Source: Crambe crambe
Taxonomy: Eukaryota > Porifera > Demospongiae > Poecilosclerida > Crambeidae
Reading direction: 5' to 3'
Assembly (NCBI GenBank): GCA_963924555.1
Contig: OZ004585.1
Coordinates: forward strand, 7,580,556 to 7,644,555
DNA: 64,000 nucleotides
Shown here piece by piece: positions 10,630 through 39,925 of this stretch. Every line of letters begins with the position of its first letter. Position 1 is the stretch's first letter. The notes beneath the pieces were generated by a model. It searched no databases, was not told the origin of the DNA, and worked only from the letters and a program-made list of their open reading frames with translations. The position numbers were made by a program, and so were the translations under genes.

Positions 10630-13600
10630 ATGACTCGCTTGGCCATTGCTGTAACCTTCCTGCTAGTGGCCGTAGGGCTCACCGCGGGGCAGCTCGATTG
10701 CTCCACGCTGAACGTGAATAGGAGTGAACCAGCACCCATTTCAGGTTAGACTTTGAGCAGACAAAAAAACAACTTTTTCTAGCTAGCTAGCTATTTTAGC
10801 AGATAGCGTAGCTAGGTTCGTACATGAATTCTCAGGGGAGATTGAAATCATTTGACCACCCATTTTCAATGCCCAATTCTCGAGTCCCCTAGCTAGGGGA
10901 CTCGAGAATTAATAGCTGTTGAACTACCACAGCATTGTACTACATACAATTTCCATTTCGATTTCCTGGTACATTTAATAGCTAGCTAAATTGGTCTACA
11001 TAAATTAAAAAGAGCATATTTTTGTTGCCTAACTTAACACACTAAAAAAAAGAAAGTGTTTGTTTGTGTTTTTAATTTTGATAAAAATAAATGAGAGAAA
11101 CAGAATTGGTTTGGCCTTAGCTATAAAGCTAGCTACTGATTTCTTGGCTTCCTGTTGTTGCACCAGCTGCCATCTCTTATTCTTGCACCATCTAGGCACT
11201 GATTTGAATGTGTGCCGGGCCACTGGTGACCAGTGTTGTGCTCAGCAGTTTTTGGACCGTATTGGACGTGATGTAAGGACAGCAGCCTTGAGAGGACTGC
11301 AAGATGAGGTGGGAAACAGAATGACAGAGGTTCAGAACATCCTTGATCGATTGGCTACTTGTAAGTAATGATTATGAGACTCATATATTATGTAAAATTA
11401 ATCTTCATATTTTTCTGTTGCAATTTTGGAATATTTGCCCTATATATCGTATTATAAAATTAATTACAAGAACATAGCGAAATAGATCTTGTACAGTGAA
11501 AAACTATAGTGAAACCTGGTCACTTGTATATTAAATGTCAGCCACCTGGGTATAAGTGATGTAACCACCTCCCATAGTGTAGCCAGGCCCAGGAGATCAG
11601 TCATTACAGTGGAACCTGGTTTATAATGGTCACTGTATAAGCAGGTCACCTCTCTACAACAGCCAGTGGTCCAAGTCCCAAGAGGGCTTTTAGTGTACAT
11701 TTCAACCCGAGTTAGCAGGCCACCTCTTCATAACAGGCATTTCTTGCCAGCCCTGAGGGTGACTACTGTAGTCCAGGTTCCACAGTAATATGTATACTTA
11801 GCCATTAACCAAATATATTAGTTCTTATCACATGATCTCCTTTGGGGGATGAATACATATATACCACATTAGGTTACTATGGCATGTTTACATTAACCTG
11901 ACTGTAATTCAATCGCCAGTATATATCGTATGGGAGTAGGTAATTTGAGATTGATTTTGGATGATGAGATTATCAGAGAGTGCGGTAGCACTCTCTAAGT
12001 AGGGATGGCAGGTCAAAGTCCATAGGACAGTATAAACTAAAAACTCTTCTTTCTCTTCTATCCTTACTCTACAGGTTCTCAGAAGGCTACAGTGAATTAT
12101 TATATCTACAAAGAAGAGAGGAGAATGTTCAAAAGCCAAAAATTCATTCGCCAACATAAGAAAAAAACGAGTTCTAAAATTGACTTTTCGTTCTTTTTCT
12201 TTATAATAATAATAATAATGTATAAGATCGACGTACCGACTTACTGGCTATAGTCATCAAAATTCTGCTTTGGCCATCTGTTAGAGCGGCACCTAGAGGC
12301 TGATCTTTTGCTATTAGTTTTGACTAAGGCTCTACTTCACTATTCGATAGCACTCGGAACACAGCTGCTAATCTTTCTACGCCATTTTGAAGGGGGCGGG
12401 GCTTATGGGCGGAGCCACGTAAGCTTAAGTTTAGCTATAGCCAAGGTCTTCATTCATTATCTGATGATGTTCCAGTCACTCCTTGCTGAATTACAGTACA
12501 GATGCTCATCCTATAGTAGCATTATAGCCAGTACTTGGCTGTAGTGTAGTCAGCTCACTTCACCATGCCGTGTACATGTCATTTACATTGCTGTTGCTGT
12601 AAAGTTTTATATCAACAAAACTTAAATAGCTAAACAAATTCTTCAACCAGAGACACTGTATGTACCTACAAAAGAGGTTTATGTAGAGCTGGCTTTGTAT
12701 AGTACTGTACTGTAGCCTCCCTCATTCAACTTCAAGCACTAAGAAAAAGGATAGAAACAAGTGAGCGTAAAAAATAAAAAGGTTAAGTAGGGATAGCCTA
12801 AAATCTAGCTGGGCTATCTATAATGTGCTGCAGCCTCGTATGAAAAAAATCTTCGCGATATTACCTCATAAAAGGGGTGGGGCAATTAATAGCAGTTCTC
12901 CTCATATAACACCTGCACAGGATGTGGCCATTTGATGGCATCCACTATTATGATCACTACACCAAATGCATAAACTCCCCATACTCCTCCCTCAAGCAAG
13001 ACATACGTACCATCTCAATAATTATTTCAGTGATCACATATGTAACAATTAGCTAATGCTGTTCACTTTTTAAAATGTTCACTCCTTTCAGTACTCCATT
13101 ACACTGCAGATGATCATCCTTCAAACTCTCCTCCCTGAACAGAATGAAATACTGATCATTAAATAAATTTAGTTCAATCAAGGAAGCCTTTAGTGTCTAT
13201 CAATTTTCATAATCACAAAGAAAAAGAATGCAAACAAGTGAATGCAAAAAATTTCTTCGAAATAAAAATGTGAAGTAGGGATGCTATTATAACTGCAGCT
13301 TCATTATGAAAACCAAGTACTGCAGCATCGAAGCAGTATGGCCCAAAAATCTAGCTGGAATATGTATTATAACTGCATGCAAGAGAGTGAACTTAGTGAA
13401 GTGACCCTTACCCATCATCAAGTACAAGATACTATTCCTACTTCACTCCCATGATCAAGGGCCAAGGGAGTGAAGTAGGAATAGTATCTCGTACTTGATG
13501 ATGGGTAAGGGTCACTTCACTAAGTTCACTCTCTTGCATGCAGTTATAATACATATTCCAGCTAGATTTTTGGGCCATACTGCTTCGATGCTGCAGTACT

Positions 13601-14466
13601 TGGTTTTCATAATGAAGCTGCAGTTATAATAGCATCCCTACTTCACATTTTTATTTCGAAGAAATTTTTTGCATTCACTTGTGTTAATAAGAGTGGAATG
13701 AAACCATGTTTCAACCTGATGCTCAGGCCTTCTTCAGGGTAATCATAACATAGAAACTTATTTTATTGTCTCTAATAGAATGATTATTTATCGTTTTAAA
13801 CACACACCCATGCAGATTTCTTTGGTGATGACTTTATCAGAGTAATCCAGAATAGCATCCCACTGAATAGTCTTTTCAGTAGTACCATCTCTACAATCAC
13901 AATGAACATACAGCAACGTCTCAATAGGCTTACCTTTGCTATCAGTGCTGAAAACCCAGAGTTCAACACAACCCAGCTATTTTCTGATCTTACTGATCGG
14001 GTCATAGCTGCAGTTCGTGGAATACCACTCTTATCTCAAACTCAAAAAGACTGCATTGCACAACAGCTGAGTCAGCATATCAATCGGACCAGCATTCGTT
14101 TATTGGGAGAGACGTTTGAGACTGTTCGAGATCTTTCACTGCTGTGACCCGAATTGCCAACTTCCTCCTGAATTTCAAGTCGAATCTTGCCAATTCCACA
14201 ATGAGGCGTTTCCCGGATCAATGTGTCACTCGTTTAATCGAGCTCTCTTTCTGCAGTCGCTGCAAGAGGCGTGTGCCACCCCTCTGCAGCAATATGTGTG
14301 GAGCTGTTATTCGAGGTTGCTACTCTGCCTTCTACTCCGGCTTACGTTCAGAGTTCAACAGGCTCTGGGATGTGAGCAAGCAAGTGGTGAATGTGGTGAG
14401 CAGAGCAGTGAGAAGGATCAGTCTGGAAGAACAAGACCTTCTCTCCAAAAACCCAGTAAGTTAAAG

Positions 14467-14517
<51 letters not shown>

Positions 14518-17500
14518 CAGTGTCAAAATGAACAATGTTATGGGTTTATTTGCATTGTATCGGCTTTGTTATGGGCTTTATATTCTTGTATTTTTCTTCT
14601 TCTTATAGTTAACTATTGCCAGTGAATGTGGAATCAATTTAGGTTCGTTATTTGGAAAACGTAAGAGGAGACAGACATCCACTCCAGACATCCCTCAGGA
14701 AATCAAGAACCGAGTAAACAGGTTGACAGGAGTCTTCGAATATCGTGAGTACTTAGAAACTCACGCATAATATGCTTTCATGTGATTCTGGATAGAAATC
14801 CATGGAATTTCCGCACCAAATTTCGGCCCCAAAGCTACTCAGTCATTGTGTAACCTGGTCACTGTATAAGAAGTCACCTCTCCATAATAGTCAGGGGTCC
14901 AAGTCCCAAGAGGGCTTTTAGTATATATTTCAACCCGAGCACAGCCATTTCTTCGAGGGTGACCACTAGGTTGCACTGTAGTGTAGTCACAGAAAAAAAA
15001 TGTAAAAAATGTACATTCACATAATTTGTACTCAACTCAACAACAGTGACTGGGTGAAAAATTTTATTATGGACAAGTGAAGCAGGAAATGGCAATTTTA
15101 ATGAACAGATTATAGGTGTGATCACACATAACAGAGACCAGGATTTTGCTTTCAACTGTTTTCTGATGTACTGCCATGCATTTAGAAAATAGTCACTACA
15201 TTATTATAAACAAACCAAAATAAACAGTGCAATGCTATCTTGCTTACTAGCTTAATGGTGCATAATATTGTATCAACTGAACCTGCTCCCAAACAGTATT
15301 ATATCAAATTTACTGGTCATCAATGTACTACAATGTGTGTGGGGCTGGCATGCTTGGTTGGAGTGTCTAGGAAGATTCTTGGCACCTACGTACATGTAAA
15401 CAGTGGGGATTTACTAATAGGAAGTAGTATCAAAAATGGTGTAGCATAGTGTGTGTAGCACTAAATTTGGGTGTCCTTCTCGTACACATCAAAATTTGGT
15501 ATATATAGTAATAATTAACTTTTGCATATGATTGTGAATGTCATACTTCTAGAATTGGGTTTTATAACAATAAATCATCACTAACTTAATTTTCTTACCA
15601 ATTTTTAAGCATAATAGGCATGTAAGAGAAGGGGTTCTGGCATTGGAGCATATCATAATAGGGAAGAAAAAAACCATAATCTGCATGTCTCTGCATGATC
15701 AGTGGTTGAGTGGAACATACACGATATAAAGGTATAATCTTGGGTAGTCAGGACTTTCCTGCAAGGCCTGGCCCACTGACATTAAGGGTTTTTGTTCTGG
15801 CAGGATGTAGTGTGGGGTGGTGGTAGTCTATGAATCTCACGTAGTAGTCAGAATTCTAGCTACGTTCATGCACAATAATTGCATCAATTGAGATGATCAC
15901 ACCAGGCAATCATCGCCCACCCAGCATCTGGCGGAGCTCAGAACATGACACACATGTCATAACAGAGACTGGGATTTTGCTTTCAGCTGTTTTCTGATGT
16001 AACTGCATGCATTTAGAAAATAATCACTACATGTTATATTTAACAAACCAAAACAAAATTTAATAGTGCAACACTATCTTGCTTACTAGCTTAATCAGAG
16101 AGTGCGCTAGCACTCTCTAAGTAGGGATGGCGGGTCAAAGGTCATAAGACTGTATAAACTAAAAACTCTTCTTTCTCTTCTACCCTTGCTCTACAGGTTC
16201 TCAGAAGGCTACAGTGAGATACTACTTCTACAAAGAAGAGAGGAGAGTGTTCAAAAACCAAAAATTCATTCGCTAACATAAGAAAAAAACGAGTTCTAAA
16301 ATTGACTTTTGTTCATTTTCTTTATCAGAGAGTGCGCTAGCACTCTCTAAGTAGGGATGGCGGGTCAAAGGTCATAAGACTGTATAAACTAAAAACTCTT
16401 CTTTCTCTTCTACCCTTACTCTACAGGTTCTCAGAAGGCTATAGTGAATTATTGCATCTACCAAGAAGAGAGGAGAATGTTCAAAAACCGAAAATTCATT
16501 CGCTAACATAAGAAAAAAACGATGTCTAAAATTGACTTTTGTTCAATTTCTTTATCAGAGAGTGCGCTAGCACTCTCTAAGTAGGGATGGCGGGTCAAAG
16601 GTCATAAGACTGTATAAACTAAAAACTCTTCTTTCTCTTCTACCATTGCTCTACAGGTTCTCAGAAGGCTACAGTGAGATACTACTTCTACAAAGAAGAG
16701 AGGAGAGTGTTCAAAAACCAAAAATTCATTCGCTAACATAAGAAAAAAACGAGTTCTAAAATTGACTTTTGTTCATTTTCTTTATCAGAGAGTGCGCTAG
16801 CACTCTCTAAGTAGGGATGGCGGGTCAAAGGTCATAAGACTGTATGAACTAAAAACTCTTCTTTCTCTTCTACCCTTGCTCTACAGGTTCTCAGAAGGCT
16901 ACAGTGAATTATTACATCTACAAAGAAGAGAGGAGAATGTTCCAAAACCAAAAATTCATTCGCTAACATAAGAAAAAAACGATGTCTAAAATTGACTTTT
17001 GTTCTTTTTCTTTATAATAATAATAATAATAAGGATAATAAATATAAGATCGACGTACCGGCTTACTGGCTATAGTCATCAAAATTCTGCTTTGGCCATC
17101 TGTTAGAGCGGCACCTAGAGGCTGATCTTTTGCTATTAGTTTTGACTAAGGCTCTACTTCACTATTCGAGCACTCGGAACACTAGCCAATCTTTCGACGC
17201 CATTTTGAAGCGCACGTCGGTAGGGGGCGGGGCTTATGGGCGGAGCCACGTAAGCTTCTCAGTTAAATCGTTTAGGTAGCTAATTTTATTCTTATCTGAT
17301 GATGTTCCAGTCACTCCTTGCTGAATTACAGTACAGATGCTCATCTTATAGTAGTATTATAGCCAGTACTTGGCTGTAGTGTCTCAGTTGAAGTGACGGT
17401 CACTACTGCCATTCAATTCTTTACATACACAAACTTACATTCAACTTCAAGCAATAAGAAAAAAAGATGGAAACAAGTGAGCGTAAAAAATTTCTTCTAA

Positions 17501-20500
17501 ATAAAAAGGTTAAGTAGGGATAGCCTAAAATCTAGCTGGGCTATAATAATGTACTGCAGCCTCGTATGAAAACAATCCCTACTTTTATAACTGCCATAGC
17601 TAGCTATAGGTAGTGGATGTAAATGTAGGGATTGTTTTCATACGAGGCTGCAGTACATTATTATAGCCCAGCTAGATTTTAGGCTATCCCTACTTAACCT
17701 TTTTATTTAGAAGAAATTTTTTACGCTCACTTGTAATAATAATAATAAGGATAATAAATATAAGATCGACGCCCCGACTTACTGGCTATAGTCATCAAAA
17801 TTCTGCTTTGGCCATCTGTTAGAGCGGCACCTAGAGGCTGGTCTTTTGCTCTTAGTTTTGACTAAGGCTCTACTTCACTATTCGATAGCACTCGGCACTA
17901 GCTAATCTTTCTACGCCATTTTGAAGCGCACGTCGTTAGGGGGCGGGGCTTATGGGCGGAGCCACGTAAGCTTCTTAAGCTAGCTAAGCTCGCTATAGGT
18001 CTTCAGTTTAATCGCTATTTATTCTTATCTGATGATGTTACAGTCACTCCTTGCTGAATTACAGTACAGATGCTCATCTTATAGTAGTGTTTATAGCCAG
18101 TACTTGGCTGTAGTGTAGTCAGCTCACTTCACCATGCCATGCACATGTCATTTACATTGCTGTTGCTGTAAAGTAAATAATAGACAAAACTTAAATAGCT
18201 AAACAAATTCTTCAACCATGCAGAGACTGTGTATGTACCTACAAAAGAAAGAGATACTCATGTCACATTAATAATCACTGCATACTCTCAGTTGAAGTGA
18301 CAGTCAATACTGCCACTCAATTCTTTACATACACAAACTTATATTCAACTTCAAGCACTATGAAAAAAGGATAGAAACAAGTAAACGCAAAAAATTTCTT
18401 CTAAATAAAAAGGTTAAGTAGGGATAGCTTAAAATCTAGCTGGGCTATAATATAATGTACTGCAGCCTTGTATGAAAATAATCCCTACTTTTACAACTGC
18501 CATAGCTAGCTATAGGTAGTGGATATAAATGTAGGGATTATTTTCATACAAGGCTGCAGTACATTATATTATAGCCCAGCTAGATTTTAAGCTATCCCTA
18601 CTTAACCTTTTTATTTAGAAGAAATTTTTTGCGTTTACTTGTAATAATAATAATAATAATAAGGATAATAAGATCGACGTACCGACTTACTGGCTATAGT
18701 CATCAAAATTCTGCTTTGGCCATCTGTTAGAGCGGCACCTAGAGGCTGATCTTTTGCTATTAGTTTTGACTAAGGCTCTACTTCACTATTCGAGCACTCG
18801 GAACACTAGCTAATCTTTCGACGCCATTTTGAAGCGCACGTCGTTAGGGGGCGGGGCTTATGGGCGGAGCCACGTAAGCTTCTTGAGTTTAGCTTAGCTT
18901 AATCGTCTTATCTGATGATGTTCCAGTCACTCCTTGCTGAATTACAGTACAGATGCTAATCTTATAGTAGTATTATAGCCAGTACTTTGCTGTAGTGTAG
19001 TCAGCTCACATGTCATTTAGCTACATTGCTGTTTACATTGCTGTTGCTGTAAAGTTTTATATTAAATAATAGACAAAACTTAAATAGCTAAACAAATTCT
19101 TCAACCAGAGACTGCTACCTACAAAAGAAAAAGATACTCATGTCAAATTAATAATCACTGCATGCATATACTTCAAGCACTAAGAAAAAAGGATAGAAAC
19201 AAGTAAGTGCAAAAAATTTCTTCTAAATAAAAAGGTTAAGTAGGGATAGCTTAAAATCTAGCTGGGCTATATAATGTACTGGAGTCGTATGAAAACAATC
19301 CCTACTTTTACAACTGCCATAGCTAGCTATAGGTATATTGGATGTAAATGTAGGGATTGTTTTCATACGACTCCAGTACATTATATAGCCCAGCTAGATT
19401 TTAAGCTATCCCTACTTAACCTTTTTATTTAGAAGAAATTTTTTGCACTTACTTGTAATAATAATAATAAGGATAATAAATATAAGATCGACGTCCCGAC
19501 TTACTGGCTATAGTCATCAAAATTCTGCTTTGGCCATCTGTTAGAGCGGCACCTAGAGGCTGATCTTTTGCTCTTAGTTTTGACTAAGGCTCTACTTCAC
19601 TATTCGATAGCACTCGGCACTAGCTAATCTTTCTACGCCATTTTGAAGCGCACGTCGTTAGGGGGCGGGGCTTATGGGCGGAGCCACGTAAGCTTCTTAA
19701 GCTAGCTAAGCTCGGCTAGGTCTTCAGTTCAATCGCTATTTATTCTTATCTGATGATGTTATAGTCACTCCTTGCTGAATTACAGTACAAATGCTCATCT
19801 TATACTATTGTTTATAGCCAGTACTTGGCTGTAGTGTAGTCAGCTCACTTCACCATGCCATGCACATGTCATTTTACATTGCTGTTGCTATAAAGTAAAT
19901 AATAGACAAAACTTAAATAGCTAAACAAATTCTTCAACCATGCAGAGACTGTGTATGTACCTACAAAAGAAAGAGATACTCATGTCAAATTAATAATCAC
20001 TGCATACTCTCAGTTGAAGTGACAGTCAATACTGCCACTCCATTCTTTACATACACAAACTTATATTCAACTTCAAGCACTATGAAAAAAGGATAGAAAC
20101 AAGTAAGCGCAAAAATTTCTTCTAAATAAAAAGGTTAAGTAGGGATAGCTTAAAATCTAGCTGGCTATAATATAATGTACTGCAGCCTTGTATGAAAATA
20201 ATCCCTACTTTTACAACTGCCATAGCTAGCTATAGGTAGTGGATATAAATGTAGGGATTATTTTCATACAAGGCTGCAGTACATTATATTATAGCCAGCT
20301 AGATTTTAAGCTATCCCTACTTAACCTTTTTATTTAGAAGAAATTTTTGCGCTTACTTGTGGTACATAATATTGTACCTGCTCTCAAACAGTATTATATC
20401 AAATTTACTGGTTATCAATGTGCGTACAATGTGTGTGGGGGTGGCATGCTTGGTTGGAGTGTCTAAAGATCCTTGGCACCTACATACATGTAAACAGTGG

Positions 20501-22861: not shown

Positions 22862-25800
22862 CTAACGTTTAAAGAAGTGACTGATTGCAACTGAAAAACA
22901 GACGATTGCTCCCATGCCAAGGATAGTGTTCAATACTGCACTCGAACTTTCCTTTACTTCTTTATTACTCGACTCGGACTCGAGAACTTCAACAGATAAA
23001 CTCTATGATGGAAAATTTTGACATGTCGTACTGTCAGGTAGAAATCAAAGCATTTAGGTCCCTCCCTCCCTCCCTCTGTACTTACCTCCCTCTTCCTCCT
23101 TCTGCATGAAATTTTACAGGGGGAAAAATTTTTTGCAAAGTTTGTGGTTTTATAAAGTACACTAAAGGAGAATATTTTTGTGCAAAATTTTCATGCACAC
23201 AGTACATTAAAAAAAAACAACAACATACCTTTGCTGCAATTACGTTCATTTTTACAGGGGGAAATTTTTTTTGCAAAGTTTGTGGTTTTATAAAGTACAC
23301 TAAAGGAGAATATTTTTTGTGCGAAATTTTCATGCACACAGTACATTAAAACAACAACATACCTTTGCTGCAATTACGTTCAATTCCTTGACTTTGCTTT
23401 GTAAGGTATGGGTGGCCTCTACTGCTTCTGACAGTCCCTTGCACAATCTCTGGCTCTCGCATGGCTCCAAGTGGGGACCGAAGAGGTCAGAGTCCGACTG
23501 GACGTGGGTGAGAAGGAACTGGGCAGAGCCTTGGAGGTACTTGGTATGGCAGGCGAGATTGGACAAGATAATCGACAATTCAGCTGAACTGAGGGATGAT
23601 AATAATAAAGAACGCTAAAGCAATACTCTGTATTGAAAGTTTCTATTCCTGATAAACTATTAGAGGTCACCATGTAAAAACTACCACCTCTATATATTAT
23701 AGCAGGTGACTACATTCCACAGTTGTGTAAAAGGGTCACCTTTGGTGACCACTTACTATATAACCATCCTTTATAGCTTGATAGCCACATATAGGTCTAT
23801 AGTCACATGACAGGCTCTTACTAACCTGATTGGCTGACCATATGGCAATACATTTTTGGGCATTCTCCACTCTTTCTTATGAACCTCCAAAATCCCTTTC
23901 AGAATCTTCTTCCGATGTCCCACTTTAGCCACACCCATCAATCTTAGGTCTGCATCAGTCATACTAATCAGCTGACCAAATTCCACTTTGTGTTCATGAA
24001 ACACAGGGATCAGTTCTCCCAGCTGGAGACCCATCAGGAACATTTCCAAGTCTCCTATGGTACTGCTGCCAGTTACTAAAGGGAGGAGTTGGTTGGATGA
24101 TCCTTGGTCTAACCTAAGATTTATGAATGATGCATGAGAATATTAAAAGCAATGATAAGTATTACACTAATCAGTACAAGCAGAACACTTTTATACTGAC
24201 ATGAACAATTAAAGCAGCTTGGTGGGAGGCAGTGATGTAGGGATTATTACTGAAGGCAGCATAATTTTGATGTTTGTTCACAGAAACTGCTATAGGTAAA
24301 AGTACAGACTGGCCTTTTTATTTAGCATAATTTTTTTTTCTTTCACTTATTCTACTTAGTCAGTCTTGTATAGCTAGACAATCAGTATGTGGCTACTGCT
24401 GATGGCAAGGGGTCCCCTCCCCCTAATATAGATTTTGAAATGTTAACCATATCTGAATTAGCTTACAATTCGCATGTCTTTTCTGTGGAACCTTTAATAG
24501 GAGGTGAGGTGGACAACTTGTCATCCGAGAGAGATTCCAACAAATCAGCAGTAGCTGTGTGGCCAGCAGAGCAGGCCATGGAATAAGGGGTTTCCCCAAA
24601 GTTGCACTTGGCCTTGGGATCACCTCCGGACTTGACCAAGAGTCGAACCAAGGGGGTGTGGCCATTGCTAGCAGCAAAAAATATGGGCTGCAAATAAGAT
24701 AAAATGTGATCACTTTTAAAGTCAAAGGGAAAAAAAAAGATGTGCATTAAAATTGAGTCTTCCCTGGCCCCATGGTATCCCCAAACTCAGAGTCGTCAAA
24801 TATGCAATAATTATTGATTACATCACCACTTACTGTCCATCCTCGGACTTCCTTTGCATTCACATCAGCATTGGCCGAGATCAACAACTGGGCCAGAGCA
24901 GTTGAACCAGTCTGGCTGGCATACAGCAGAGGAGTCATGTGGTACCTGTCACTGGCGTTGACTTGTGCACCATGATCGATTAGGAGACGAGCGCACTTCT
25001 CAACCTTGTCTCGTAGGTGATGTGGCTTTGTCATACATGTTACCATAAGGGCAGTGAGTTGATCTAAGGAAGTAGAAAAGAGATGGATATGCAGTGATGT
25101 ACAGCAAAAGGGTGAATTATATTACTAAGGGATCCCAGAAATGTAGAGGTTTCCAAATTCTACCACTACTGTTTTTTTTTTATTGACTAATAACTGACCT
25201 TTGCTTGAGTTGGGGTTGGCTCCTTTGTCAAGGAGGAGCTTGATGATTGCTTCTTGACAGTTCTCACAAGCATGAAGTAGAGGTGGCCAGCTGGACTTCA
25301 ATGGTAGATCAGGGTTAAGTCCTACATGCATAAAACATCCACAGGACATCATCAAATAATCATACCCAGATTAAAAAAGCACCTCCTTGGTCTCAATTCA
25401 TACCACCGACCAGCCCCAAAAAAGTGATTGATCATAGGTCAGAACCTAAACACTTCTTTTCCAGGAATTGGTTGAGAAAAAACTTTCTAACTTTATAAGG
25501 TAATTAAGGGAAGAGTCAAATCAAGCAAAGGCATTACATCTTCACCTTGGTCCAGTAGTCTTGCAACCTCTTCAATGTTTCCTCTCATCACAGCTATTTT
25601 CATATCTTCTTCAACCTCAAGATTTTTCATTTGACTTTTCATTTTAACTCTGTCGCCACCACCTGACCTGCGAGACCCGCTATCTGATTTCCTGGAGAAA
25701 CTATCAGTTCCTTTATTTATAACTACAGGATCATTTGCAAGAAAGTCATCATAATCATCAAAATCCTGAGAGTCATCAGCGATTTTGAAGGTGACAGGAC

Positions 25801-37073: not shown

Positions 37074-39925
37074 TTAAGCCTTTTTCCTAGATCTTTTAGG
37101 TAGTAGAGTGTCATCAATCTTCTCAGGACTGGATAGTCTTCTCTTTCGCCTACAATTTCCCTGGACACGGTCCAAATCTAGTGACTTTTGTGCACGAATG
37201 GCCACAGCATTTTGGAGACACTCTTTCAAGGATGGGTTATCACACCTCCTTCCCCTAGTACGTTGCATACCAAAGTAGTTTTCTAACGGATCCTGAGTGA
37301 TACGTTCACTGAGCAAAAGTAGTTTTTCTCCAGGCTGGGATAATAGGTACCGAGCCATCTCTACAAATGACTTCACTATTGTAGGACAGGAAAAATAAAT
37401 CAATAAAATAGCAAAAATAATTAATGAATTACCTGTGATACGTAATCCTTCAACTGTCTCCTCACTTAGATACTTTCTTTTCTTTTCAGCTGCTGGCTCC
37501 TTACCTTTCTCAATATCACCTACCCATTCATCAATGTACCCTAGAAAGTCCCTCTCTAGCCACTGTAAAAAGCACAGTGTTATCCATGACTCTTATTTCA
37601 ATGTTACCTTATAAGTCTTTCATCTTCAACAGAGGTGTAAGTTTTGAGATTTTTTTTTCCTTCTTAGCCCATTAGCTAAGACAGTCAAAAAATTGATCAA
37701 ACTTTTGGATAAAAATTTCTGTTTCTGTAGTTCCAGGATCTCCAAAGTAGGCCATTGCGTCAGCAACAGACTTGCTCAATACCTTTTGATTGAAAAACAA
37801 AAATCAACCACCTACACAATTTGATTACGTATCGGGGAGGGGGTGGAATATTTAAGGAGACAAGTATGGTAATTAAAGCACACCAGCAACTACACTACAC
37901 ACTCAGACCTAAGTAGGTCTGCAATGATTAAAGCACACAGCATGTACATCTCTAACTGATATACCTGAGCAGCAAGATCCACTCGCATACGAGAATAGGA
38001 TGTAAGGTTGATATGTTCCAATTTAAGCTTTGGGACAAGCGAAAGTCCCTTTGACTGTACAGCCATTCCAGACAGCTTTTCATAAAGGTTACGTACATGC
38101 TTCCATTCAATATACAATAAAAATCACTCACACATACCGTCATCAGCCTTGTGCCATTCCAACCAGAATGAGATAGACAATTTCTTGCTGTCTTAATGAT
38201 ATGAGGTGGATCTGATATAAAGTAAATGCTCCTTCCTTCTTTTGAAAATACATTAGAGGTCTTGTAAACTGCACCTTTTTGACCCTTTTCACAATGCATA
38301 CGAAATAACTTTCTATTAGAACTTGCTCCATCCCCGGTAATACAGATAACCTTAAGACCAATAGCTTCCAGATGATTAATTGCTTCCCAAACGATTGAGA
38401 AAAGGAGGTCACCTGCTGCATTCTCACTACCGAAGTGGGCATAAGGAAAATCCAACTTGAAAAATATTCCCCTCACCATCAACACCAAGAGATGTTTAGC
38501 TACAGGAGGATGATCAGTGTGATCGCTGAGACATTCTCTTTCAAGATTTAATATTTCATTGTTTACATTGCCAAGATTGGTGAACCCTATGATCTCCCCT
38601 TCATATTTATCATAAATTAAATTTTCCTTCAATTTCATTTCATCTAGGAGTAGAGCACAGAACCTACGGTTTTCAGGTAAATCTTCTTTCTATAACTGCT
38701 GATTTACTTCAATCTGAAATCCAGCTCGGCTCTTAAAGTAGTGGGTGTAATCACGTAAAGTTCTCTCTGACGGGAGCTTGAATCCTGCACTTCTAGTGGC
38801 ATGATATGCAGCACTTGAAATAAGTTTTAAGTTCAAGCACCACCGTATGAGAAGAGGATGCCAGCGCATTTGACGTGAATCTTTTACACGAGCTGCACGT
38901 AACTGTTCCTCCCAGAAAAGTCTCTGGAAACTTCCTTCTGGGTACATTTTCTTGATTTCTTCACTACTTCCTTGCACAATATTCAAAAGATCACCATGCA
39001 AAGCATCATCCATACAATCCCCTTGCTTCTGAGTTAGTTCCTTAACTTTTACTTTCAGTTTTCTTATTTCATTTTCTGCTAATTGGGCCCTTTTTTTAAC
39101 TTGTAAATTTTTGATTTCTTTTCAGGTGAGCTCATATAGCGAATGTTCGTATGGCTAGAGGTGTCACTGATGTTATCAGAAGAACGATGTGACCAACGAT
39201 TTATAGTGTCCTCAGTGTTGCTCTGTAGGTTTTGCATGATCTACATTTGGAATTATCATCAAAATTCCTTTCTTGGTAGAGGCCATTGTAATAAAGTGGC
39301 TATCTGGCTGAGCAACGCATACTTTAAGTTGGTCAATAAGGCAAAGCAAAGAGGAGAGAGAATGTGCTCTCAATTTTTTCAGGATGGAAGTTAATGCAGG
39401 ACACATGCTTTGTTTAACTTTACAGTTATGTACAAAGAGGGACCATTGCATGGTATTACTTACTGACAAGCAGTGGGTGACAATAAGTGAAGATGATGCT
39501 CCAGAAGAAATCTTACACAACTTTATACTAGTCAAGGGAGATGGACTCTGATCACACCACGATTGATTAGGCAACACAATTGACTTGTGAAGATCTTCTA
39601 GAGTGATAGATTGCAAATCGTCGGATGAAGATGACTCCACTTGTACCTCTTCGGCACTGACAGATTGAAATTCCACCTCTGTAGATTGTGATGAAGATGA
39701 TCCCATTTCCAGAGTGACAGATTGCAGCTCATGTTCACTTGGTGAAGACAACTCCGCCTGTAGATTTTCCAGAGTGACAGATTGCGATTTGTTTGATGAA
39801 GATGATTCCACTCGTGTATCTTCCACACTGATAGATCGCTGTTCACTCGATGAAGATGACCCCATATGTAGATTTTCTTCTGGAGCGACAGTTCCTTTCA
39901 GCTGCAGGGTATATGCATGTAACAT
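37074..39925 (-). pseudogene. P-element/THAP9-like transposase, decayed
   Basis: Segments in order (minus strand): 39925-39014, a Ser/Glu-rich repeat region then KVCVAQPDSHFITMAS and a coiled coil; 39013-38690, with MRWHPLLIRWCLNLKLIS and LPSERTLRDYTHYF; 38638-38138, the catalytic-type domain with ITGDGASSNRKLF and ISDPPHIIKTARNCLSHS; about 38100-37966, with GLSLVPKLKLEHINL and RMRVDLAAQ; about 37786-37680, VLSKSVADAMAYFGD; 37562-37433, WLERDFLGYIDEW; 37375-37074, ITQDPLENYFGMQRTRGRR...DNPS. A stop and frame changes occur around 37,640-37,690 (after FDCLS), so this copy is probably inactive. No THAP zinc finger was identified at the N-terminus. Confidence 0.8.

Follow-up and report, generated by a model that had tools for sequence, protein, structure and literature searches.

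To our knowledge, it is not settled what becomes of a Helitron's 3′ end when the element replicates. In the model outlined for Helraiser, the 3′ hairpin is a terminator, one strand is peeled off, and insertion takes place between A and T without target-site duplication (PMC4778049, PMC5876387). Helitron1 elements of this kind (Helraiser/Helibat) are described there with Rep and helicase in one open reading frame (ORF), a 5′-TC start, a CTRR end and a 19-bp hairpin 11 nt inside the 3′ end; Helitron2 elements are described in PMC5148889 with hairpins at both termini and an asymmetric terminal inverted repeat. The stretch analysed here, 64,000 nt of the sponge Crambe crambe (contig OZ004585.1, positions 7,580,556 to 7,644,555; the whole stretch is called the window), contains an array of four palindromes, for which a sequence-only reading had reported that the two arms match perfectly within a copy while the copies differ. 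The Helitron-like nature of their element went unrecognised there. Judged by their sequence, the palindromes are the 3′-terminal hairpins of a Helitron-like rolling-circle transposon family, and we give a probability of about 0.7 to a history in which one arm would have been copied repeatedly from the other in the transposing lineage, the arms decaying after insertion. This family, in which the ends are long hairpins, near-identical copies are numerous, and half-converted intermediates occur along with inverted loops, offers natural evidence on the fate of a terminal hairpin in transposition. A literature search over titles and abstract openings found no Helitron with comparably long co-evolving terminal palindromes.

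The array belongs to a composite non-autonomous element whose limits were fixed by an unoccupied paralog of the insertion site (Table 1). The joined flanks of the element match this paralog at 86% over positions 34–332 of a 340-base query, and the junction AA/TG (the slash marks the insertion point) is ungapped; therefore the insertion point of the whole composite is between an A and a T, and at this one empty site no target sequence was duplicated. The flanks themselves are thus a duplicate of sequence just upstream. An A precedes TCAG in both elements of the window, in copy L111 and in six of six readable 5′ flanks (10 copies were fetched, and the other four had no TCAG or too little flank). 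All 5′ ends read begin with TCAG; the motif itself was used to locate them, but the empty site fixes 16095 independently. The 3′ ends are CTTG, less often CTTA. In the flanks that were read (30 loci, then 40 more), complete palindromes adjoin the same body end (GGATAGAAA or a near variant) and stop at ACTTGT, beyond which lies unrelated DNA, (AAT)n, another unit or the 230-bp repeat of Table 1. In 17/105 copies, and in L098, no outer end of the second arm was found. At C11:6559201 there is only about 45 bp of family sequence ahead of the palindrome, with other DNA upstream, and because of this copy a short body end of about 45 bp plus the palindrome may suffice as a 3′ end. The hairpin would act as the 3′ terminator.

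A candidate autonomous partner was found in the genome (143 Mb, 119 contigs). Related palindromes lie downstream of at least 6 of the 67 Helitron_like_N matches, namely those at C8:5074192, C17:3003413, C16:5471129, C5:7315551, C1:5077937 and C1:5043222, and end 7324, 7328, 7347, 7349, 7347 and 8487 bases, respectively, downstream of the match start. The one copy that was read (C8:5071606-5078742) begins with a 230-type start (TCAGAGAG) and (TAA)n; next come a stretch that shares 82% identity with the first 148 bp of the unit, an ORF, which was read in two overlapping pieces, and, starting 2.6 kb past the ORF end, a terminal palindrome whose 85-nt arms are 100% complementary and 30 nt apart. 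The ORF of this copy matches Helitron_like_N (PF14214, 2.1e-25), PIF1 (2.9e-27) and OTU (4.6e-18), so that by domain matches a Rep (HUH) and a PIF1-type helicase occur in one protein, whereas no endonuclease family, as in Helentrons, was found in it at E<=0.001.

The Rep and helicase in one ORF, the 5′-TC (here TCAG), the A/T insertion without duplication and the 3′ hairpin are shared with Helitron1 as described for Helraiser and Helibat (PMC4778049, PMC5876387). The sponge family differs in its 3′ CTTG, in a 5′ palindrome, in a hairpin of about 200–450 bp that reaches the very end instead of a short one 10–12 nt before it, and in arms that co-evolve. With Helitron2, as described in PMC5148889, it shares hairpins at both termini, the TCAG start of FoHeli1 and an asymmetric terminal inverted repeat: TAAGTAGGGAT, which follows the perfect 5′ palindrome, recurs inverted in the arm of the 3′ palindrome. 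Hairpin length differs, as does the FoHeli1/2 target TNAT/T, and the likeness is one of termini. Two other classifications were rejected. A standalone hairpin of the miniature inverted-repeat transposable element type, or a foldback element with terminal inverted repeats, would show a target-site duplication, of which there is none at the empty site of 16095-20359, and every complete palindrome in the flanks read is joined to a body. A LINE-like element with a (TTA)n tail is ruled out by the A/T insertion and the Rep-helicase partner.

In the array, self-alignment confirmed that the arms match perfectly within each copy. Measured from the leading A up to the ATCCCTAC motif, the outer arms of palindromes 1–4 are 110, 112, 107 and 110 nt long, and they flank a central loop of 42–44 nt in which similar asymmetric mismatches are kept in all four. 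For comparison, four other inverted repeats in the window (arms 41–86 nt, spacers 51–359 nt) are 89–94% complementary. DNA folding of palindrome 2 gave −133.9 kcal/mol against −24.0 (sd 3.5) in 200 shuffles, and therefore the palindrome is not due to chance. The mirrored changes that had been pointed out were all found again: GGAGTCG in the third palindrome, AAACGC in the second and, in the fourth, the lack of one A and of one G. Their description as copy-specific holds for the missing G, mirrored in palindrome 4 alone among the 133 copies compared below, but most other marks are shared with copies elsewhere. GGAG of palindrome 3 stands in both arms of 3/133 copies, AAACGC of palindrome 2 in both arms of 2/133, and the missing A of palindrome 4 in both arms of 2/133 and in one arm of L120. 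Full-length matches at 100% identity were found at four other genome places for palindrome 1 and at one for palindrome 2, and palindrome 3 is 100% identical to one other over 252/257 bp. Because marks and full-length matches occur elsewhere, palindromes 1–3 at least are taken to have arrived as different subfamilies, with marks that were not born in the array; independent mutation in each array copy is ruled out by the same sharing of most marks. The array, four head-to-tail units in which (TAA)n and body together take up 0.46–0.64 kb and a palindrome closes each unit, would most plausibly have formed when read-through or recombination linked several 3′ ends belonging to different subfamilies.

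For the genome-wide comparison, palindromes 1, 2 and 3 were used as queries and palindrome 4 was left out. The copies are the best 40 candidates scored per search, out of 931–1648 candidates listed, so that the sample leans to near relatives of the queries, and of the palindrome places listed in two of the searches a minority was fetched in sequence. Palindromes were found in 151 cases, 131 of them of 190–460 bp. A first set (n=108) was formed without 13 of the 449-bp type described below or unrelated and without 10 of unclear orientation, and includes 3 palindromes with loop borders set by hand; a second set (n=133) comprises these 108, nine of the ten of unclear orientation and 16 new ones, with L098 excluded and C16:5466419 left uncorrected in the wrong orientation.

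The sequence-only reading had proposed to align all arms and count differences within against between copies. In the first set 80 palindromes have no arm difference, sites differ by 0.33% within and 5.4% between copies, and 54 first-arm haplotypes occur. In the second set, 84 have none; over 13,775 sites there are 84 substitutions plus 26 gaps, or 0.61% within against 5.95% between copies, and the summed difference between first and second arms is 110, compared with a mean of 1011 and a minimum of 886 in 2000 shuffles of arm pairs. Mirrored substitutions are of 51 types, 38 of which are common to two or more copies. Insertions and deletions (indels), like substitutions, are nearly always mirrored. 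Among the copies that the motifs could score, 97 have both arms full at the site of a 14-bp deletion, 12 have both arms deleted and a single one (L155) has the deletion in one arm only; for a 3-bp insertion, the copies with it in both arms, in neither or in one number 35, 43 and 1, and for a 2-bp indel 89, 16 and 1. The autonomous-type ends of C8 and C17 lack about 33 bp from both arms.

Loops occur in both orientations. The loop of C1:5051475 is the exact reverse complement of that in three autonomous-type ends (C16:5478242, C1:5085050 and C5:7322666), while the arms are the same, apart from one private base in C5; the loop of C8:4276186 is the exact inverse of a common loop, and near-exact inverse loops were found in C8:2205340 and L168. 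In yeast, template switching between inverted repeats is described as giving two products, arm homogenisation and spacer inversion (PMC8604942); the arms there are short and are not transposon ends. Repeated arm-to-arm copying is supported because the indels are mirrored and because loops are inverted, a companion of arm-arm template switching known from that description. Near-perfect arms and arm homogenisation are also described for nematomorph mitochondrial palindromes, which are not transposon ends (PMC6649704).

We propose that one arm would be copied from the other now and then while the lineage transposes, either on the displaced single strand or while its second strand is made, through template switching or through repair templated by the hairpin. 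A 110-bp hairpin on the peeled strand would offer many chances for a polymerase to copy from arm to arm, and a 3′ end that had been trimmed could likewise be filled in again with the first arm as template. In this way a one-arm substitution or indel would be erased or mirrored, the loop would sometimes be inverted, and the inserted copy would then decay as ordinary DNA. We infer that the copying is tied to the replication of transposition, and infer its direction likewise. The data support arm-to-arm copying in the active lineage and are compatible with template switching as well as with snap-back.

Age was judged by the loop. The distance to the nearest neighbour correlates with arm difference (rho 0.62), a correlation that is partly built in, and a loop-based test on 123/133 palindromes was used instead. 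A private loop, one found nowhere else in the set, was taken as older and would mean age. Copies with a private loop (n=33) have a mean of 2.06 arm differences, with 11/33 at zero, against 0.32 and 71/90 at zero in copies with a shared loop (n=90; Mann-Whitney p=1.2e-7), and in decayed copies the arms are strongly different. The question raised earlier, whether arm identity stays near 100% in old copies, is thus answered in two parts: arms are near-perfect in shared-loop copies but not in private-loop copies. In 195 bp of upstream body there are 82 private changes, 42 of them in two misfit copies, and the rest correspond to about 0.25%, which is close to the sum of the private rates of the arms, 24 unmirrored changes in 20,068 arm bases (0.12%) and 12 mirrored ones in 10,034 paired sites (0.12%). 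The private-loop excess and, more weakly, these rates fit mirroring before insertion and plain decay afterwards. These findings suggest that identical palindrome arms can record activity rather than age.

Several observations weigh against repeated copying as we have put it. Some private-loop copies are private only by an inverted or chimeric loop; the body and arm rates are small counts with the two misfit copies removed by hand, and per copy, misfits included, body changes and unmirrored arm changes are uncorrelated (r=0.05). Arm mismatches are inherited: six copies share a T/C mismatch about 10 nt away from the loop, three (L160, L162, L165) a 1-bp deletion beside it and two (L160, L161) an A/G mismatch further out, and a derivative with a new 3′ end has an outer-end mismatch in all four copies read (L124, L157-L159). 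In the 449-bp type, an A/G mismatch between the arms lies at 13426, 27 nt from their inner end, and is found in at least 41 identical places, so that this inner part, at the least, is passed on unaltered. Given such inherited mismatches, a move does not always rebuild the second arm completely; equalisation was frequent over the life of a lineage without being assured at any single move. The half-converted copies C18:5109855, L155 and C8:2205340 could be recombinants between subfamilies, and no replication intermediates were observed.

The alternative that survives best is snap-back or hairpin transfer at every transposition, in which the 3′ end of the displaced strand would fold back and the first arm would template the second, as at parvovirus termini. 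The near-perfect younger copies, the loops in both orientations and several inherited mismatches near the loop or centre, as expected with the inner stem as primer, agree with it. Against it, inherited mismatches pass unchanged through many copies, a few of them further out; near-loop enrichment is weak, and shared unmirrored sites are spread over the full length of the arm, and several fall on CG dinucleotides, which are likely to be hit recurrently. The 14-bp deletion of L155, in the second arm only, would, if L155 is an intermediate, point in the wrong direction for first-to-second copying. We regard snap-back at every move as unlikely. That one-arm inherited mismatches stand only near the loop held in the first 108 copies and was weakened by the 25 added, since several shared mismatches lie further out; it is suggestive only. 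A related idea is a rolling-hairpin-like stage, in which the Helitron terminal hairpin would be re-templated and its loop flipped by snap-back or hairpin transfer built into replication; we put it forward tentatively, as a possibility. Parvoviruses have terminal hairpins in flip and flop, with both loop orientations, like the inverted loops here; they are linear viruses with hairpins at both ends, unlike the sponge element. The sequence-only reading had offered two explanations, copying of one arm from the other and a palindrome made anew at each move. The second agrees only in part with the data, given the A/G mismatch of the 449-bp type, and of the first, arm-to-arm copying is supported and permanent gene conversion in place is not.

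Such conversion, continuous between the arms of resident copies as in human Y palindromes, would explain the low arm difference overall; it is largely contradicted by the greater arm difference of private-loop copies and the strongly unequal arms of decayed ones, and we consider it very improbable. Selection for base pairing, with compensatory mutations that keep the hairpin, might be expected since a Helitron 3′ hairpin is described as a terminator (PMC4778049) and pairing may matter. Independent compensation would hardly yield mirrored indels 2, 3, 14 and about 33 bp long, and one-arm transitions that keep wobble pairing are not in significant excess (33/58, p=0.36), so that this explanation is given equally little weight. 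An assembly or sequencing artefact is hardly credible: long palindromes are hard to sequence and the analysis rests on the assembly, not on reads, but the 133 palindromes lie on many contigs with different flanks, share marks between distant loci, conserve asymmetric loops and, in decayed copies, have unequal arms.

Repeats that are more alike within than between copies are also known from Galileo, a terminal-inverted-repeat transposon and not a rolling-circle one. For this foldback-like element of Drosophila (PMC2775673), the own repeats of 2 of 4 tabled copies differ by 0.0018 and 0.0071, against about 0.02–0.07 to those of other copies. Unlike the sponge palindromes, its copies 4 and 5 have own repeats that differ by 0.0628 and 0.0570 and match across copies, a pattern presented there under ectopic recombination.

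Table 1 Features of the Helitron-like family in the window (positions in the window)
Feature	Position	Strand	Basis
Second Helitron-like element, same family	11973..13681	+	TCAG start, CTTG end followed by T; homology in the 5′ part and at the end
Left arm of a 260-bp-type palindrome, orphaned within the second element	12757..12851	+	blastn map
449-bp terminal palindrome of the second element, 220-nt arms, 9-nt spacer	13234..13682	+	inverted-repeat listing, blastn map
Unoccupied paralog of the insertion site	15127..15427	+	86% identical to joined flanks
Composite non-autonomous Helitron-like element, 5′-TCAG...CTTG-3′, between host A and T	16095..20359	+	empty-site paralog
5′ end region, four tandem 230-bp repeats, each opening with TCAGAGAGTGCG	16095..17015	+	TRF; genome copies
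Perfect 22-bp palindrome at the 5′ terminus, then TAAGTAGGGAT	16097..16118	+	read directly
Unit 1 body, (TAA)n and shortened body	17016..17472	+	blastn map
3′-end palindrome 1	17473..17734	+	self-alignment, arms perfect
Unit 2 body	17736..18376	+	blastn map
3′-end palindrome 2	18377..18642	+	self-alignment, arms perfect; folding computed
Unit 3 body	18643..19198	+	blastn map
3′-end palindrome 3	19199..19456	+	self-alignment, arms perfect
Unit 4 body	19457..20098	+	blastn map
3′-end palindrome 4, terminus of the whole element	20099..20360	+	last T (20360) read as host

In the terminal palindrome of the second element, the outer ~49 bp of both arms are homologous to the array palindromes and the interior is different; at least 41 places, including this one, are 100% identical over 471 bp. 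The orphan left arm, followed by a different terminal palindrome, may reflect a replaced 3′ end. Elsewhere in the window, 37952-38638 (−) holds an ORF with a TNP-like RNase H domain, a remnant of another transposon; no Rfam family at gathering score and no tRNA gene was found in the 64 kb.

A derivative with a truncated palindrome was read in L124, L157, L158 and L159, all with one new 3′ flank, as terminator read-through predicts; C6:2592658, C16:790149 and C12:3493092 were assigned to it by position only. Terminal palindromes also occur as tail-to-tail pairs about 6–8 bp apart (C8:4276186/4276452, C8:2205074/2205340, C8:5006782/5007049, C12:4646402/4646672 and C13:4193882/4194360). On C7 (115,406 bases), palindrome copies lie at 23284, 63240 and 103192, spaced by 39,956 and 39,952 bases, and this contig is perhaps a 40-kb unit repeated about three times.

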